From positions 62,001 to 126,000 of the forward strand of contig QXPY01000012.1 of NCBI GenBank assembly GCA_003583745.1: DNA of 64,000 bases. The letters are read 5' to 3'. Under the pieces are notes generated by a model. That model saw only the letters and a program-made list of their open reading frames with translations, was not told the DNA's origin and did not search any database. This document shows, piece after piece, positions 8,822 through 15,856 of this stretch. The translations under genes and the position numbers were made by a program. Positions within the stretch are counted from its first letter, which is position 1, and the number at the start of each line of letters is the position of its first letter. The stretch comes from Rhodocyclales bacterium GT-UBC (lineage in GTDB: Bacteria; Pseudomonadota; Gammaproteobacteria; Burkholderiales; Rhodocyclaceae).

Positions 8822-9679
8822 TCAAGCAGTACGACGACTTACCGCAAAGAACCCAAGCAGACCGCACAAGACCAGAAGCAAGCTCGCCGGCTCCGGCACC
8901 GCATTGCCGCTGGCTCCGCCGAGGGCCAGATCGTAACCACGCCAGGTTCCGCCCGCCTGATCGACCACCCAGAACAAGCCGTTGGCATAGCTGTAGCTGA
9001 ACTCCGAATCAAAACCGGTACCTGCACCAAGCAGGAATGTCGATCCGAGGAAATGGCCTTGAAGGTCCCAGGCCGAAACAGTGCCATCGAGATAGGTCAG
9101 CAGATTGTCGCCGGCCACCGCCAATCCGCGATTAGCCGGATAGCCCACAGAACCGTAGCCGGACAACGCGACCGATCCCAGATAGGTCCCGGACAAGTTC
9201 CAGCGACTGACAGTCCCGTTGAGTTCAGCCAGATACTCGGTACCTGCGCCGTTGAGCACGACAGCCGATTGCGCGTCGAGCGTACCGCCGAGCAGCTGGG
9301 TCTGCGCCGTGAACTGGCCGAAACTGGTTTGACGATAGATCGTATTGCTGCTGAAACCACGAGCCAGCAGGTTATTGCTCGAATCGGTAAATACGGAACG
9401 GAAATCGATTCCGGGGTTCGGCGAAACAGAAGCAACAAAGTTACCAGAAGCGTCATATTTGGCATAAGGGCTACCATAACCACCACCCGAGGCCGTGTAG
9501 TAGTTCACACCATCCCAAGCCAGGGTCATGGTGGTTGACGGATTATGGTCCGTAAAGCTTGCCGTTGCCGAATAGCTTGCCGAGCTAAAAATACTGACCG
9601 CATGCACCGATGTCAGGCTAGCAGTCGAAAGTGCAGCGAGCACCCCCAGCGCAAGATGACGCACAAATCCGAATTTCAT
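8822..9679 (-). CDS. PEP-CTERM sorting domain protein
   Basis: The 285-residue protein has an N-terminal signal peptide (cleavage near VHA|VSIFSS). The C-terminus holds a classic PEP-CTERM tripartite signal: VPEPASLLLV, a hydrophobic helix, then basic SRRTA. Such proteins are exported, cut at PEP by an exosortase (EpsH type) and displayed or released with extracellular polysaccharide. The middle is Ser/Thr/Gly/Tyr-rich with repeated beta-strand-like units (for example GTVSRWNLSGTYLGSV and GTVSAWDLQGHFLGST), suggesting a small beta-propeller. No exosortase gene is in the window. Base composition is visibly more AT-rich here than in its neighbours. Function of the mature part unknown. Confidence 0.88.
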   Translation of the reverse strand: MKFGFVRHLALGVLAALSTASLTSVHAVSIFSSASYSATASFTDHNPSTTMTLAWDGVNYYTASGGGYGSPYAKYDASGNFVASVSPNPGIDFRSVFTDSSNNLLARGFSSNTIYRQTSFGQFTAQTQLLGGTLDAQSAVVLNGAGTEYLAELNGTVSRWNLSGTYLGSVALSGYGSVGYPANRGLAVAGDNLLTYLDGTVSAWDLQGHFLGSTFLLGAGTGFDSEFSYSYANGLFWVVDQAGGTWRGYDLALGGASGNAVPEPASLLLVLCGLLGFFAVSRRTA

Positions 9680-9936: not shown

Positions 9937-10479
9937 ATGAACAAGCCCCCCCTTCTGCTCCTTTTGCTCCTTTTGCTAGCAAGCGGTTTGGCACAGGCCG
10001 AATCCCCCGTCCCCACGGCCAGTTACCCGCCTCCCAATTTTCCGCCCCCTCCCGGCCTGCACTCCGGCGCAAACAGCTACCCAAAATTCTCAGCCCCGGT
10101 CATTTCTGCCGAACCGGCATACAAAACCGAATACTTCGAGCGTCGAATATGCAATCCCCCCGCCCCGCCCTCGGAGACGCAAAACGCCGTTGGAACCGTC
10201 CTGGGTGGGGTCGTAGGCGGGATATTGGGCAATCAGGTCGGGCGCGGCCGTGGGCGTACTGCCGCAACGGTCATTGGTGCGGTAGGTGGGGCTGTAGCCG
10301 GCAATGCTGTAAGCACCACGCTGCCCTCCACGCCTGAATGCCGAACCGTCTCGGAACCCCAGCAAGTCATCGTCGGCTACGACGTCGTCTATGACTTCTC
10401 CGGGCAACGTGGCCATGTCCGCCTACCGACGCGGCCTGGCCCGAGCATCATTGTCGAAGTCAGACCGGAAGTCCTCTAA
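9937..10479 (+). CDS. Exported glycine-zipper (2TM) protein
   Basis: A 180-residue protein with a leucine-rich signal peptide (MNKPPLLLLLLLLLASGL, cleavage after AQA). A Pro-rich stretch follows, then a glycine zipper around residues 90-125 (VLGGVVGGILGNQVGRGRGR and GAVGGAVAGN), and a C-terminal domain with two Cys-containing segments (RRICNPP, TPECRTVSE) that could form a disulfide. Glycine-zipper 2TM domain proteins, of the Rickettsia 17 kDa antigen / SlyB type, sit in the envelope; their biochemical role is poorly known. I chose the ATG at 9937 because it starts the signal peptide directly; the ATG at 9916 would add seven residues. Divergent from the PEP-CTERM gene across an AT-rich 257-base gap in which I see no clear promoter. 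Confidence 0.75.
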   Translation: MNKPPLLLLLLLLLASGLAQAESPVPTASYPPPNFPPPPGLHSGANSYPKFSAPVISAEPAYKTEYFERRICNPPAPPSETQNAVGTVLGGVVGGILGNQVGRGRGRTAATVIGAVGGAVAGNAVSTTLPSTPECRTVSEPQQVIVGYDVVYDFSGQRGHVRLPTRPGPSIIVEVRPEVL

Positions 10480-10546
10480 GCCCTAGTTGTTTAGTCCCAC
10501 GGTGTGCCGGAATCGGACCCGGCATCGCCGAGCAACGAATTTCCTG

Positions 10547-10596
10547 CGAACGGCCCGATTCCGGCGGCGAACGGTTGCCGGACGAACCCGAACGGT
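10547..10596 (-). promoter_or_regulatory. Triple 21-bp-spaced direct repeat, candidate BtsR site
   Basis: Three 8-mers lie on an exact 21-bp period: CGAACGGC (10547), CGAACGGT (10568) and CGAACGGT (10589). On the minus strand they read ACCGTTCG, ACCGTTCG, GCCGTTCG. The unit and the 8+13 spacing match the repeats upstream of the transporter gene at 13752 and resemble the E. coli BtsR motif (ACCGCTCA-like, 13-base spacer). The site lies about 145 bases before the YidB-like gene, with the repeats oriented against it. Confidence 0.6.
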
Positions 10597-10740
10597 CAAA
10601 AACGCCGATTTTTTACCAAAAAACCCAATCAATTCAATCACTCACAAGTAGACACCCGTCGTCACGAGCGGTAATTTCGGTGCTGTAACGGGAGCCAGAG
10701 AGCGCCCGACACCCCGACCCCGACGCTTCAGGAGACGACG

Positions 10741-11157
10741 ATGTGCTGCGAATTTGAAGAAATGGCCATTCAACTGGCGCGCAATGCGCAACGGGCCGGC
10801 GGCGCCAACAGCCGACTGGTGAATAGCCTGATGAAGCTGATCGAGCACCACGACGGCGGCCTGCCAACCTTGCAGGAACGCTTCCGCCAAGGCGGACTGG
10901 AGCGCCAGATGCGTTCCTGGATCAGCACCGGCGACAACCTGCCGCTGCCGGTCTGCGCCGTGCGTGGCGCCTTGGGAGAGAAAGCCTACGACCGCCTGAA
11001 ACGCCGCCTCGACCTGGAGGCCGACGAAGCCAGCGCCATCCTGGCCGAAGCCCTGCCGCACGCCATCAATCGCCTGACCCCGAACGGCCGGATCGAGGCC
11101 GCCCGCCCCCGCTTCAGCGGCTTCAACCTGTTCAGCCGCCTGCTCGGCGCCCACTGA
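10741..11157 (+). CDS. YidB-like DUF937 protein
   Basis: The 138-residue protein has the DUF937/YidB signature: the segment GGLPTLQERFRQGGLERQMR is followed by SWISTGDNLPL and then a LG-x-KAYD helix. YidB-type proteins are small and soluble with unknown function. It is read away from the glycine-zipper gene. A set of three 21-bp repeats lies upstream, so it could belong to the regulon of the neighbouring BtsR-like regulator. GGAGACGACG immediately before the ATG includes a GGAG ribosome-binding site. Convergent with the regulator gene, 27 bases apart. Confidence 0.75.
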   Translation: MCCEFEEMAIQLARNAQRAGGANSRLVNSLMKLIEHHDGGLPTLQERFRQGGLERQMRSWISTGDNLPLPVCAVRGALGEKAYDRLKRRLDLEADEASAILAEALPHAINRLTPNGRIEAARPRFSGFNLFSRLLGAH

Positions 11158-11184: not shown

Positions 11185-11898
11185 CTAGTTGAAGCCGAGG
11201 CGCTCCTTCAGTTCGCCGAACAGCCGACGGCTGACCGGCAGGCGGCGCCCGCCCTGCGTCAGGATCTCGGCACCACCGATATCCTGGAAGACGATTTCCT
11301 TGATCAGTTCCGGATTGACCAGATACTGCCGGTGGCAGCGCAGCAGCGGGGTCTTTTCTTCCAGCGTGCGCAGGGTCAGTTCGGTGAAATGCTCGCCGCC
11401 GTCGCCGGTCACGACATAGACGCCGGTAGCGTTGGAGTAGGCGTATTCGATGCTGTCCACCTTGATCAACTGCACCCGCTGGTGGCCGGGACAAGGAATC
11501 TGCTTCAATGGCGCGGCCGCCTTGAACAAGGCTTCGTTCGGCGCCCGGTCGCGGCGCAGGCGCTGCAGTGTGACCTCCAGCCGGGCCGGATCGATCGGCT
11601 TCAACAGGTAGTCGAAGGCATCCTTCTCAAAGGCCTGCAGGGCGTATTCGTTGTAGGCGGTGAGGAAGACGACGCGCGGCATCTTGTCCGGGTCGAGCAT
11701 GCTGAGCATTTCCAGGCCGCTGACGCGCGGCATCTGGATATCGAGGAAGACGACTTCCGGATGCAGGCGGTTGATCGCCGAGATGCCCTCGATGGCATTG
11801 GCGCACTCGCCGAGGATCACGATATCCGGCTCCTGCGCCAGGATGCGGGCGATTTCCTCGCGAGCCGGGGTTTCGTCGTCGATGATCAGGACATTCAT
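11185..11898 (-). CDS. btsR: BtsR-like LytTR response regulator
   Basis: A 237-residue regulator with an N-terminal receiver and C-terminal LytTR DNA-binding domain. The receiver has the acidic pair in MNVLIIDDETPA, the phospho-acceptor aspartate in VVFLDIQMPRVSGLEM, and the conserved lysine in YLLKPID. The LytTR half contains ELTLRTLEEKTPLLRCHRQY and LPVSRR. These stretches are close to E. coli BtsR (YehT), including ECANAIEGI and the LTLRTLE block. In E. coli, BtsS-BtsR senses pyruvate and activates the CstA-family transporter BtsT; here kinase and transporter genes lie next door. The kinase gene ends 10 bases upstream, so the pair is co-transcribed. Predicted targets are the 21-bp repeat sets at 10547 and 13752. 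Confidence 0.92.
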   Translation of the reverse strand: MNVLIIDDETPAREEIARILAQEPDIVILGECANAIEGISAINRLHPEVVFLDIQMPRVSGLEMLSMLDPDKMPRVVFLTAYNEYALQAFEKDAFDYLLKPIDPARLEVTLQRLRRDRAPNEALFKAAAPLKQIPCPGHQRVQLIKVDSIEYAYSNATGVYVVTGDGGEHFTELTLRTLEEKTPLLRCHRQYLVNPELIKEIVFQDIGGAEILTQGGRRLPVSRRLFGELKERLGFN

Positions 11899-11908
11899 GG
11901 GCGTTTCC

Positions 11909-13612
11909 TCAATTGACCGGCACGTCGCAGGGCACCAGCGGCAGTTTCAGCGTGACCCGGGTACAGACCTCGCGCTCGCAATCGATCTCCATGCCGTATT
12001 GCGGGCCGTAACGATTGACAATGCGACGGCGCACCAGATTGACGCCGAGACCGCTGTTGTCGGCCGGCGGCGCATACAGGCCGGCATTATCCTCGACACA
12101 GAGCAGCAGGGCATCCTGCTCTTCCCGGGCGCTGATCCGGACATGGCCGACACCGAGCAGTTGCGAGGTGCCGTGCTTGATCGCGTTCTCGACCACCGGT
12201 TGCAACGAGAAGGCCGGCATCCGGACATGCTTGAGATGATCCGGGATATCGAACTCGACCACCAGGCGGTCGAGGAAGCGTGCCTGCTCGATTTCCAGGT
12301 AGGCCGCGACGTGGGCCACTTCCTCGCTGAGGCAGGCCTCCTCGCTCGGCCGCTTGAGGTTCTTGCGGAAGAAGGTCGACAGGTTGAGCACCAGATGACA
12401 GGCCCGCTCGGGATCGCGCCGGATCACCGCCGACAATGTGTTGAGGGCGTTGAACAGGAAATGCGGGTTCACCTGGGCGTGCAGCAGCTTGATTTCCGAC
12501 TGCGCCAGCATCTCGCGCTGCCGCATGTAGCGGCCGGCCAGGATCTGGTTGGAAAGCAGCCGGGCAATCCCTTCGCCGAGCGTCCGGTTGATCGTCGAGA
12601 ACAGCCGGCTGCGCGGTTCGTAGAGCTTGATGGTGCCGATCACCCGGTTGTCCTCGCCGACCAGCGGAATGATCAGCGAGGCGGCCAGCGGGCACTTCGG
12701 GTTGATTGAGCAGCGATAGCCGATCTCGTTGCCGTCGGCGTACACCACCTCGTTGCACTCGATGGCCTGGCGGGTCAATTGCGAGCTGATCGCCTGCCCG
12801 GGAATGTGGTGGTCGGCGCCGATGCCGATAAAGGCGAGCAGGTGTTCGGTATCGGTGATGGCGACCGCCCCGACCCCGGTTTCTTCGTAGAGGATCTTGG
12901 CGACGCGGGCGCTGGTGTCGATATTGAAGCCGTCGCGCAAGACCCCTTCGACCCGCGCCGCGATGGCCAGCGCCCGGGTCGAGAACACCGTTGATTGACG
13001 TTCGAACAACTGCCGGCGATCAAGCAGGATGCGCATGAACATGCCGGCCCCCAGGGCGTTGGCCAGGCACATCGGCACGGCAATCTGCTCGACCAGATGG
13101 GCGGCGATGGCAAAGGGCTTGACCAGCAGCAGCAGGATCGACATCTGGGCGATTTCCGCCCCCAGCGTCACCAGTGCCACCGGCAGCGGCTGGAAGATCG
13201 CCCCGACCCGGCCCTGCTGCATCATGTGGCGATGGAACAGGCCGCCGATCAGGCCTTCGACGATGGTCGACACCATGCAGGCCTGGGCCGAAATGCCGCC
13301 CAGGGAATAGCGGTGCAGACCACCGGTAAAGCCGACGGCGAGGCCGACCGACGGCCCGCCCAGGATGCCGCCGAGCACGGCGCCAATGGCGCGGGTGTTG
13401 GCGATCGAATCGTCGATTTTCAGGCCGAGATAGGTGCCCATGATGCAGAACAGCGAGAACACCACGTAGCAGGTCATGCGGTGCGGCAGACGGATGGTGA
13501 CGTGCATCAGCGGGATGAAGATGCGGGTCCGGCTGAGCAGGTAGGCGATCACCAGGTACACGCAGGTCTGCTGCAACAGGGTCAGACTGAGCGTGATCGA
13601 CTCAAAAAACAT
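11909..13612 (-). CDS. btsS: BtsS-like pyruvate-sensing histidine kinase
   Basis: The 567-residue kinase has an N-terminal LytS-type multi-helix membrane domain (with RLPHRMTCYVVFS, DDSIANTRAIGAVLGG and GGLHRYSLGG), a GAF-like middle section and a cytoplasmic His-kinase domain. The phospho-acceptor is in HAQVNPHFLFNALNTLS and the ATP-lid motif is VENAIKHGTSQLLG. Block-by-block it follows E. coli BtsS (YehU), a high-affinity pyruvate sensor. The ATG at 13612 is preferred over the in-frame ATG at 13660 because the protein then begins MFFESITL like the family, and AGAGG lies just upstream. Co-operonic with btsR downstream and divergent from the transporter gene. Confidence 0.92.
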   Translation of the reverse strand: MFFESITLSLTLLQQTCVYLVIAYLLSRTRIFIPLMHVTIRLPHRMTCYVVFSLFCIMGTYLGLKIDDSIANTRAIGAVLGGILGGPSVGLAVGFTGGLHRYSLGGISAQACMVSTIVEGLIGGLFHRHMMQQGRVGAIFQPLPVALVTLGAEIAQMSILLLLVKPFAIAAHLVEQIAVPMCLANALGAGMFMRILLDRRQLFERQSTVFSTRALAIAARVEGVLRDGFNIDTSARVAKILYEETGVGAVAITDTEHLLAFIGIGADHHIPGQAISSQLTRQAIECNEVVYADGNEIGYRCSINPKCPLAASLIIPLVGEDNRVIGTIKLYEPRSRLFSTINRTLGEGIARLLSNQILAGRYMRQREMLAQSEIKLLHAQVNPHFLFNALNTLSAVIRRDPERACHLVLNLSTFFRKNLKRPSEEACLSEEVAHVAAYLEIEQARFLDRLVVEFDIPDHLKHVRMPAFSLQPVVENAIKHGTSQLLGVGHVRISAREEQDALLLCVEDNAGLYAPPADNSGLGVNLVRRRIVNRYGPQYGMEIDCEREVCTRVTLKLPLVPCDVPVN

Positions 13613-14041
13613 AAGCGTTGCCTCTAGTGCCAGGCTCGCGAGTGGCGCGCCTTTTTTCAATATTGGCAGCTAGGCCGGCGAGCAGCAACCGAGGCGGCAC
13701 GAAATTGGCCGGCCGCCCCCCGTTTTACGCTCCCTCGACCCGGCAACGGCAACCGTTCGCCCCCGCCTGGCGACCGTTCGCCTTGCACTGAGGACCGCTG
13801 GCCAAAATTCCGCCAGTTGCCGCCCCGGGCCCACCAAAGCACATCGCTGCTTGATCGGCCGCCTCCCGTCCGCCGCCCGCCGGGCGCCGTCCGTGCCGCC
13901 TCGTCAACCGCTGACCCCGGCCAATCCGCCGTTCGGGTGCAGCCGGCAACCGCTCCCGGGAAAGCCCGGAAAGCCTGGCCGCCGACGCCTAGCATTCAGG
14001 CCGTAGAACATTCCATTCACCACAATCTGGAGGGACGAAAA
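13613..14041. other. 429-base intergenic region between btsS and the transporter gene
   Basis: There is no convincing ORF here. It holds the repeat set at 13752-13801 and, at its right end, GGAGGGAC before the transporter ATG. The rest is very GC-rich with short simple CCG-type repeats (13855-13895). I cannot place a confident -10/-35 for either direction. A leader of up to about 200 bases for the transporter is likely if the repeats lie just upstream of its promoter. Confidence 0.6.
13752..13801 (+). promoter_or_regulatory. Triple 21-bp-spaced direct repeat upstream of cstA/btsT, candidate BtsR operator
   Basis: ACCGTTCG (13752-13759), ACCGTTCG (13773-13780) and ACCGCTGG (13794-13801) are each separated by 13 bases, a strict 21-bp period of two helical turns. 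LytTR regulators bind direct repeats of this kind, and the E. coli BtsR motif is a pair of ACCGCTCA-like units with a 13-base spacer. The set lies between divergent btsS and the transporter gene and is oriented with the transporter. Confidence 0.72.
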
Positions 14042-15856
14042 ATGGATCAAGCCATCTACTTCGTAGTCTTGACAGTCTGCATCCTGGCCCTGGCATATCG
14101 CTTTTACGGCATATTCTTCGTGCGCAAGGTCCTGGCTGCCGATGACAAGGAAATCACCCCGTCGCATCAACTTGAAGACGGGAAAAACTACGTACCAACC
14201 AAGAAATGGGTCAATGCCGGCCAGCACTTCGCCGCCATTGCCGCCGCCGGTCCGCTGGTCGGCCCGGTACTCGCCGCCCAGTTCGGCTACCTGCCCGGCT
14301 TCATCTGGCTGCTGGTCGGTGCCGTGATCGGCGGTGCGGTGCACGATACCGTCGTGCTCTTCGCCTCGATGAAGCATCAGGGCAAGTCGCTCTCCGAAGT
14401 CGCCAAGGCCGAACTCGGCCCGGTCGCCGGCTGGAGTACCGGTCTCGCCATGCTGTTCATCATCACCATCACCATGGCCGGCCTCTCCATCGTTGTCGTC
14501 CATGCGCTGGAACGCAATGCCTGGGGTACCTTCGCCGTCTTCATGACGGTGCCGATCGCCATCGCGCTCGGTCTCTATGAACGCTATGTCGGTTCGTCCA
14601 AGTGGGCCACCTACATCGGCGTCGCTGCCGTCATGGCCTCGGTTGCCGCCGGTCCGCACCTGCAAGGCACCGTCCTCGGCGACTGGCTGACCCTGCACAA
14701 GACCACCGTCTGCTGGATCCTGCCGATCTACGCCTTCTTCGCCACCGCCCTGCCGGTCTGGATGCTGCTGACCCCGCGCGGCTACCTGTCGAGCTTCATG
14801 AAGGTCGGCGTTTTCCTGGCCCTGGTCGTCGGCGTCGTCGCCATCAACCCGACCATCCAGTTCCCGGCCCTGACCGACTTCATCAACGGCGGTGGCCCGA
14901 TCCTCAAGGGTTCGGTCTGGCCGTTCATCTCGATCACCATCGCCTGCGGTGCCATCTCCGGTTTCCATGCCTTCATCGGTTCCGGCACGACGCCCAAGCT
15001 GGTCGATAAATGGACCGACATCCAGCCGGTCGCCTTCGGTGCCATGCTGGCCGAATGCCTGGTTGCCGTGATGGCCCTGATTGCCGCCACCTCGCTGCAC
15101 CCGGCCGACTACTTCGCCATCAACTCGACGCCGGAAGTCTTCAAAACCCTGGGCATGCAAGTCGTCGATCTGCCGCAACTGAGCGAAGCCATGGGCATCG
15201 ACCTCTACGGTCGCACCGGTGGTGCCGTGACGCTGGCTGTCGGCATGACCTACATCTTCACCAAGATCTCCTGGTTCAGCCACCTGGCCGCCTACTTCTT
15301 CCAGTTCGTGATCATGTTCGAAGCCGTCTTCATCCTGACCGCTGTCGATTCCGGTACCCGCGTCTCGCGTTACCTGATCCAGGATCTGCTCGGTGACTTC
15401 TTCCCCTTCATGAAGCGTCTGGACTCCCTGCCTGCTGCCATCATCGCCAGCGTCATCGCCTGCGTCCTGTGGGGCTACCTGCTGCTCTCCGGCGACATCG
15501 GTTCGGTCTGGGCCCTGTTCGGCGTCTCCAACCAGTTGATGGCTTCCATCGGCCTGATGATCGGCGCCACCATCGTGCTCCGCCTGTCCAGCAAGCGTGC
15601 CTACATCCTGACCTGCCTGATCCCGCTGGCCTACCTGTTCGTGACGGTGAATTACGCCGGCTACTGGATGATCAGCAATGTCTATCTGAACAGCGCCGGC
15701 AAGGGCTACAACCTGTTCAACGCAGGGATTGCCTCGGTGATGCTGGTCCTCGGCTTCGTCATCATGTTCGCCTCGCTCAAGCGCTGGGCCGTGCTGTGGA
15801 AAGCCCGCGGCGAATCGAAGGCCATCCCGGCCGCACTGACCGCTCATCCGGCCTGA
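14042..15856 (+). CDS. CstA/BtsT-family carbon-starvation transporter
   Basis: A 604-residue inner-membrane protein with many hydrophobic helices and the CstA-family landmarks VNAGQHFAAIAAAGPLVGPV, GAVHDTVVLFASMKH, SGFHAFIGSGTTPK and AVDSGTRVSRY. E. coli members BtsT and CstA (~700 residues) are pyruvate/H+ symporters and were earlier linked to peptide uptake. This shorter form lacks part of the C-terminal region. The ATG at 14042 is chosen because GGAGGGAC precedes it by 7 bases and MDQAIYF begins the first helix; the open frame upstream is GC-rich junk. Its position beside btsS-btsR and behind repeats matching a BtsR site makes pyruvate uptake the best guess, so BtsT is the likely functional name. 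Confidence 0.9.
   Translation: MDQAIYFVVLTVCILALAYRFYGIFFVRKVLAADDKEITPSHQLEDGKNYVPTKKWVNAGQHFAAIAAAGPLVGPVLAAQFGYLPGFIWLLVGAVIGGAVHDTVVLFASMKHQGKSLSEVAKAELGPVAGWSTGLAMLFIITITMAGLSIVVVHALERNAWGTFAVFMTVPIAIALGLYERYVGSSKWATYIGVAAVMASVAAGPHLQGTVLGDWLTLHKTTVCWILPIYAFFATALPVWMLLTPRGYLSSFMKVGVFLALVVGVVAINPTIQFPALTDFINGGGPILKGSVWPFISITIACGAISGFHAFIGSGTTPKLVDKWTDIQPVAFGAMLAECLVAVMALIAATSLHPADYFAINSTPEVFKTLGMQVVDLPQLSEAMGIDLYGRTGGAVTLAVGMTYIFTKISWFSHLAAYFFQFVIMFEAVFILTAVDSGTRVSRYLIQDLLGDFFPFMKRLDSLPAAIIASVIACVLWGYLLLSGDIGSVWALFGVSNQLMASIGLMIGATIVLRLSSKRAYILTCLIPLAYLFVTVNYAGYWMISNVYLNSAGKGYNLFNAGIASVMLVLGFVIMFASLKRWAVLWKARGESKAIPAALTAHPA

Follow-up and report, generated by a model that had tools for sequence, protein, structure and literature searches.

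A conserved, reversed and promoterless triple repeat before a yidB-like gene is probably a binding site of the pyruvate response regulator BtsR

Gene content of the btsSR-btsT locus

A cognate BtsS/BtsR pair and a CstA-family transporter are encoded close to a set of short direct repeats at 10547-10596 in the 64-kb stretch of DNA analysed here (the window, from the genome denoted G000). The btsR gene (11185-11898, minus strand) encodes a response regulator with a LytTR domain that matches the NCBIfam BtsR model NF008677 with 352 bits (cut-off 246), and adjacent to it on the same strand is btsS (11909-13612, start taken at MFFESI), which encodes the pyruvate-sensor histidine kinase. Identity to the E. 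coli K-12 proteins is 56% for BtsR and 61% for BtsS, and all four BtsS residues reported as pyruvate contacts (R72, R99, C110 and S113 in E. coli numbering; PMC10653868) are conserved in the window's protein. In domain scans, BtsS exceeded the Pfam cut-offs for 5TM-5TMR_LYT and His_kinase and fell slightly short of them for GAF and HATPase_c. The transporter gene (14042-15856, plus strand; PF02554, 594 bits) falls under the NCBIfam CstA equivalog cut-off (476 of 1,188 bits) and is named btsT here because it is linked to btsSR.

On the other side of btsR, two genes on the plus strand enclose the repeats. A yidB-like gene (10741-11157; PF20159), the candidate target, lies to their right, and a glycine-zipper gene (9937-10479), absent from the corresponding place in the closest relative, G048, lies to their left with its 3' end facing the set. 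Adjoining the glycine-zipper gene, 8822-9679 on the minus strand encodes a product whose PEP-CTERM sorting motif (PF07589) scores at the cut-off.

A triple repeat of the BtsR operator type

The set at 10547-10596 consists of three units on the minus strand at exact 21-bp steps: ACCGTTCG at 10589-10596, ACCGTTCG again at 10568-10575, and GCCGTTCG at 10547-10554, with GAAA (10540-10543, minus strand) at bases +4 to +7 past the last unit. These repeats are real, and with an ACC-type unit directly repeated every 21 bp they have the form of a BtsR operator. An initial annotation of this DNA had described them as inverted and as having a 14-base core in common with a set near the transporter gene, and both observations hold: the 14-mer GGCAACCGTTCGCC occurs exactly at 10566-10579 on the minus strand, where it contains the second unit, and at 13748-13761 on the plus strand, with no other exact copy in the window.

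The rarity of the set depended on how strictly it was matched. Three copies of ACCGTTCG at 21-bp steps were found once in the window at up to one mismatch and twice at up to two, compared with a mean of 0.00 at either setting in 100 dinucleotide shuffles of the window. Across the whole 4.68-Mb assembly, the exact pair ACCGTTCG-N13-RCCGTTCG gave three matches, of which two overlap at 10547-10596 and one lies at 13752-13780, making these the only two loci that carry it, and its reversed control had no exact match. Exact triples of the form RCCGYT/21/RCCGYT/21/RCCGYT numbered four in the same assembly, at 10547, 13752, 13907 and C5:58853, the last of which was taken for a coding repeat, judging from its GCCGTT-rich sequence. 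At looser settings, the reversed control was the commoner of the two, both for pairs at up to three mismatches (62 against 220) and for RCCGYT triples at up to one mismatch (7 against 66), and GGCAACCGTTCGCC with up to three mismatches was at chance level in the window (16 found, 14.9 expected). The exact pair was also present in seven other family genomes (8 of 297 searched including the window's own, as counted from the match list), and a lone pair is therefore weak evidence. These searches covered the stated motifs, and weaker BtsR sites may exist elsewhere in the genome. The region's single Rfam match, at E = 0.53 and 21.7 bits where the gathering score is 79, gave no support for a known RNA element. 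An 11-bp inverted repeat, GCCGGAATCGG (10506-10516 and 10555-10565), overlaps the spacer between the second and third units.

Two further triples, both on the plus strand, lie between btsS and btsT. The distal triple (13752-13801) points away from btsS and is without a -10 element at +34. The proximal triple (13907-13956; ACCGCTGA, GCCGTTCG and ACCGCTCC at 13907, 13928 and 13949) is weaker in motif than the distal one, lies 85 bases before the btsT ATG, and has a -10 element (TAGCAT, 13990-13995) at +34. The initial annotation had assumed the set before the transporter gene to be the one at 13752; to judge from the sequence, the real operator of the btsT promoter is 13907-13956. With one core mismatch allowed at most, the combination of two units and TAnnnT at +34 was found at a single place in the window, btsT. 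For btsS, a candidate promoter was picked by eye at 13660-13688 on the minus strand (TTGCTG at 13688-13683, 17 bases, CAATAT at 13665-13660); its hexamers are weak, and it gave no match in a consensus promoter scan.

Conservation in the closest relative

We compared the locus with that of G048, a metagenome-assembled genome (83% complete) whose BtsR is 91% identical to that of the window and whose gene order, yidB-btsR-btsS-btsT, is the same. In G048, too, yidB is preceded by a triple that matches in position and orientation (L061 7846-7895, minus strand), with ACCGTTCA as the first unit, an identical second unit, GCCGTTGC as the third, and the same GAAA past the last unit. The initial annotation had named conservation of the repeats in related genomes as a check, and they were present in the only other genome seen with the yidB-btsR arrangement, so that the arrangement together with its reversed triple is known from two genomes that are relatives of each other. 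The distance from the set to the yidB ATG is 144 bases in the window and 155 in G048. The G048 assembly contained two exact RCCGYT triples, namely the set before yidB and one before btsT.

Alignment of the two genomes by blastn began only at 10626 and extended rightwards, with no similarity found to the left of the set, and the sets were compared by motif register. In this register, units were identical at 21 of 24 positions and spacers at 7 of 26 (one-sided Fisher test, p = 1.6e-5, a value inflated by the units having been found via the motif). A fairer test was provided by shuffling the 398-base intergenic region of G048 20,000 times, with single-base composition alone preserved: no shuffle contained a triple at up to four mismatches or an exact RCCGYT triple. 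Conservation between the species appears to exceed the background, albeit on the strength of one relative. For the 13752 set, the contrast with G048 was weaker (units 21/24, spacers 17/26, p = 0.07).

No genome other than these two was seen to carry a close yidB orthologue. Some YidB match occurred in 56 of 76 genus genomes, the next best after the close orthologue being 40% identical, and searches for further close copies returned only the window's own gene, both among 395 family genomes (E <= 1e-25) and among 399 order genomes (E <= 1e-22), samples from which G048 was evidently absent. BtsR at 73% identity or more was present in 6 of the 76 genus genomes.

The left neighbour of the set differs between the genomes, being the plus-strand glycine-zipper gene in the window and a leftward beta-carbonic anhydrase gene in G048 (L061 7017-7652, minus strand; 193 bases downstream of the reversed operator), and yidB is common to both. 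The left join in G048 may be an assembly error. In the window's genome, the carbonic anhydrase orthologue (92%) is elsewhere, on C5, with no triple (up to one core mismatch) in the 6.5 kb around the gene, and similarity between the two carbonic anhydrase loci stops before the operator is reached, 82 bases ahead of the gene. We therefore rejected carbonic anhydrase as the ancestral target.

A promoter rule for BtsR operators and a further candidate target

Operators were compared within the close BtsR group; distant BtsR loci (50%-61% identity) gave one pair match and no triple by this motif. Among the promoter-type operators of nine genomes, those with btsT or a small CC/Se-motif protein gene as the nearest gene, TAnnnT started at +34 past the last unit in 15 of 15. 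Nine of these lie forward before btsT (G000, G048, G046, G075, G056, G007, G449, G450 and G414) and six precede the CC/Se gene (G007, G056, G046, G075, G449 and G450). The count includes the btsT operator of G048, which retains only the last unit, that of G007, whose first unit is poor, and the CC/Se operator of G046, which has two overlapping registers, of which the one fitting +34 was used; it leaves out G440, in which btsT was not found, and G134, where btsT starts at base 735 of the contig and no triple turned up. The bases at +4 to +7 are GAAA in 9 of 9 btsT promoter operators and in none of the six CC/Se operators (GAAT, GAAG, GGAT, GAAG, AAAG and AAAG).

A sharp promoter rule emerges from these operators, namely a last unit followed by 33 bases and then TAnnnT, and the 10547 set departs from it. 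Neither this set nor the 13752 set, nor the G048 counterpart of either, has TAnnnT at +34 (0/4) or starting anywhere between +29 and +42, read leftward in the case of the 10547 set. The canonical BtsR promoter of the group, with units toward the gene and TAnnnT at +34, is accordingly not what lies at 10547-10596.

The comparison also points to the CC/Se-motif protein gene as a likely further BtsR target in the group. In the six relatives, the gene and its operator occupy L063 8200-8683, L062 6834-7296, L293 2795-3232, L286 3-420, L284 2694-3176 and L285 2535-3015. Scans of two of the products gave matches to the NCBIfam CC/Se motif (seleno)protein family NF041239 (40 bits, exactly at the cut-off, and 47.7 bits). 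The gene was not found in G000 or in the 83% complete G048 with a query that matches the relatives by tblastn.

Target and mode of action of the reversed operator

Taken together, we regard 10547-10596 as a genuine, conserved operator, reversed and promoterless before yidB, and probably bound by BtsR, with binding suggested by the neighbourhood and the shared motif. About its action we are evenly divided: there is roughly an even chance that the adjacent BtsR uses it as a functional operator which, reversed upstream of yidB, acts on the yidB promoter in the manner of an enhancer. By this mechanism, the pyruvate-sensing LytTR response regulator would bind the three reversed units, and the bound operator would work at a distance on the yidB promoter, with the units spanning roughly -88 to -137 relative to the inferred yidB start. 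Since yidB is the adjacent gene common to both genomes, and the left side offers neither a shared gene nor a canonical -10, the operator most likely serves yidB in reversed orientation. We infer both the yidB promoter and its control by BtsR, and activation by pyruvate is the simplest guess. The initial annotation had proposed a BtsR-type operator that adds a member to the regulon, as well as two alternatives for its orientation; the operator indeed looks BtsR-type (LytTR), with yidB as a candidate member, and of the alternatives, action of BtsR in this orientation is favoured over a leftward transcript antisense to 9937-10479.

The candidate yidB promoter (10649-10677, plus strand) was picked by eye as TAGACA (10649-10654), 17 bases, and TAATTT (10672-10677), scored under the threshold of the consensus scan, and has TGGACA-17-TAATTT as its G048 equivalent. 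Its -35 element lies 52 bases from the set in the window and 63 in G048, a difference of 11 bp, or about one helical turn, which would about keep the helical face; as the yidB and btsS promoters were both drawn by eye and score below scan thresholds, this spacing is no more than suggestive. When the two window stretches were scanned for consensus promoters and terminators, nothing was found, and the same scans of G048 gave one site resembling a promoter (TGGATA-16-TAAAAT, which the window does not conserve) and one resembling a terminator, both close to the shuffled expectation. Against enhancer-like action on yidB, the set breaks the rule of orientation toward the gene with a -10 at +34 that holds in the 15 promoter-type operators, and in G048 the gene for carbonic anhydrase does lie in the direction in which it points.

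The units and the GAAA that follows them are oriented as in a normal BtsR promoter, which would fit leftward transcription driven by the operator, giving an RNA antisense to the glycine-zipper gene in the window and the carbonic anhydrase mRNA in G048, where that gene starts 193 bases downstream (operator-to-ATG distances of CC/Se genes reach about 150). Against this, the absence of TAnnnT to the left of the set in either genome, at +34 as well as from +29 to +42, where 15 of 15 promoter-type operators have it at +34, disfavours a canonical antisense promoter. The lack of blastn similarity left of the set, and the end of carbonic anhydrase similarity short of the operator, weigh the same way. 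In the window, moreover, no leftward gene follows, and a hairpin (-37 kcal/mol, z -1.9) forms on the minus strand directly past the set, with no T-run seen after it and no counterpart seen in the G048 stretch inspected. The sequence evidence does not support the antisense idea, and leftward activation as a whole seems improbable. It is somewhat easier to imagine, though still unlikely, that the operator has outlived a lost target, the CC/Se gene for example, and is either decaying or serves only to titrate BtsR. The element no longer has its promoter part, and the CC/Se gene, with its own operator in six relatives, was not found in either of these two genomes. However, the triple persists before yidB in both while its spacers are at chance level, and of the two copies that of the window agrees better with the consensus.

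The two promoterless triples might instead act jointly, by looping or as two reversed enhancers, on btsS and yidB. Both sets are present in both genomes about 3.2 kb apart, flank yidB-btsR-btsS, lack a -10, and face outwards, each in reverse orientation with respect to the gene behind it; the gap to the candidate -35 is 63 bases for btsS in the window and in G048 and for yidB in G048, and 52 for yidB in the window. The by-eye promoters, with weak btsS hexamers, tell against joint action, as do the relatives: no triple was found in about 400 bases upstream of btsS in six of them, regions that are approximate because three have a misplaced start codon. We consider joint action quite improbable. 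Least credible of all, and very improbable, is another, AlgR-like LytTR regulator as the real user of the sites. The AlgR core CCGTTCGTC has CCGTTCG in common with the units (PMC4064291), and two further BtsR-like regulator genes are candidates by sequence match in the genome (C14:145441 and C12:158095); but no unit continues with TC as the AlgR core does, the next bases being GG, CC and CA, and three of the four exact triples of the assembly are at the btsRS-btsT locus.

Under the favoured reading, enhancer-like action of BtsR on yidB, a very small pyruvate regulatory network probably has one more member, unusually wired. E. coli BtsR has been described with a single target gene (PMC5552118), and a later table names phosphorylated BtsR among the regulators of pdhR, the same source listing the BtsR and YidB genes apart from each other (PMC10100675). 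A further conserved operator would tie yidB-like proteins, whose function is unknown, to extracellular pyruvate in a testable way, and the 10547 set offers a natural case for whether LytTR regulators act from reversed sites. A more far-reaching idea, which we hold to be doubtful, is that the lineage has two kinds of operator: forward ones with their own -10, at btsT and the CC/Se gene, and promoterless reversed triples at a fixed helical phase upstream of yidB (10547) and btsS (13752). If true, the promoterless triples would be orientation-reversed enhancers of a pyruvate regulator, with yidB in the pyruvate response and btsSR in a feedback loop.

Comparison with known operators

The E. coli K-12 btsT upstream region holds ACCGCTTA-N13-ACCACTCA, which is also contained in the oligonucleotide 'yjiY YehT bs' of PMC4847170. 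The 10547 set resembles this BtsR (YehT) operator at btsT/yjiY in its ACC-type units and 21-bp step, in addition to the relatedness of regulator and sensor noted above. It differs in being a triple that has no promoter downstream, is reversed relative to its candidate gene and lies away from btsT. E. coli btsT itself does not show the +34 rule of the relatives, having GGCAAC at that place. A reversed enhancer-like mechanism nonetheless has precedent, as the AlgR site at -94 of Pseudomonas aeruginosa algC kept 98% activity when reverse-complemented (PMC4064291). That site (ABS1) likewise has a CCGTTCG core, serves a LytTR regulator and works reversed, but it is not a 21-bp triple and belongs to another regulator and regulon, whereas the 10547 set is known here from sequence. 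Closer to hand are the CC/Se operators of the relatives, which likewise have units at 21-bp steps and which in G056, G007 and G046 precede a gene that sits in yidB's slot, convergent with btsR; they differ from the 10547 set in their forward orientation, in their -10 at +34, and in the gene family that they precede.
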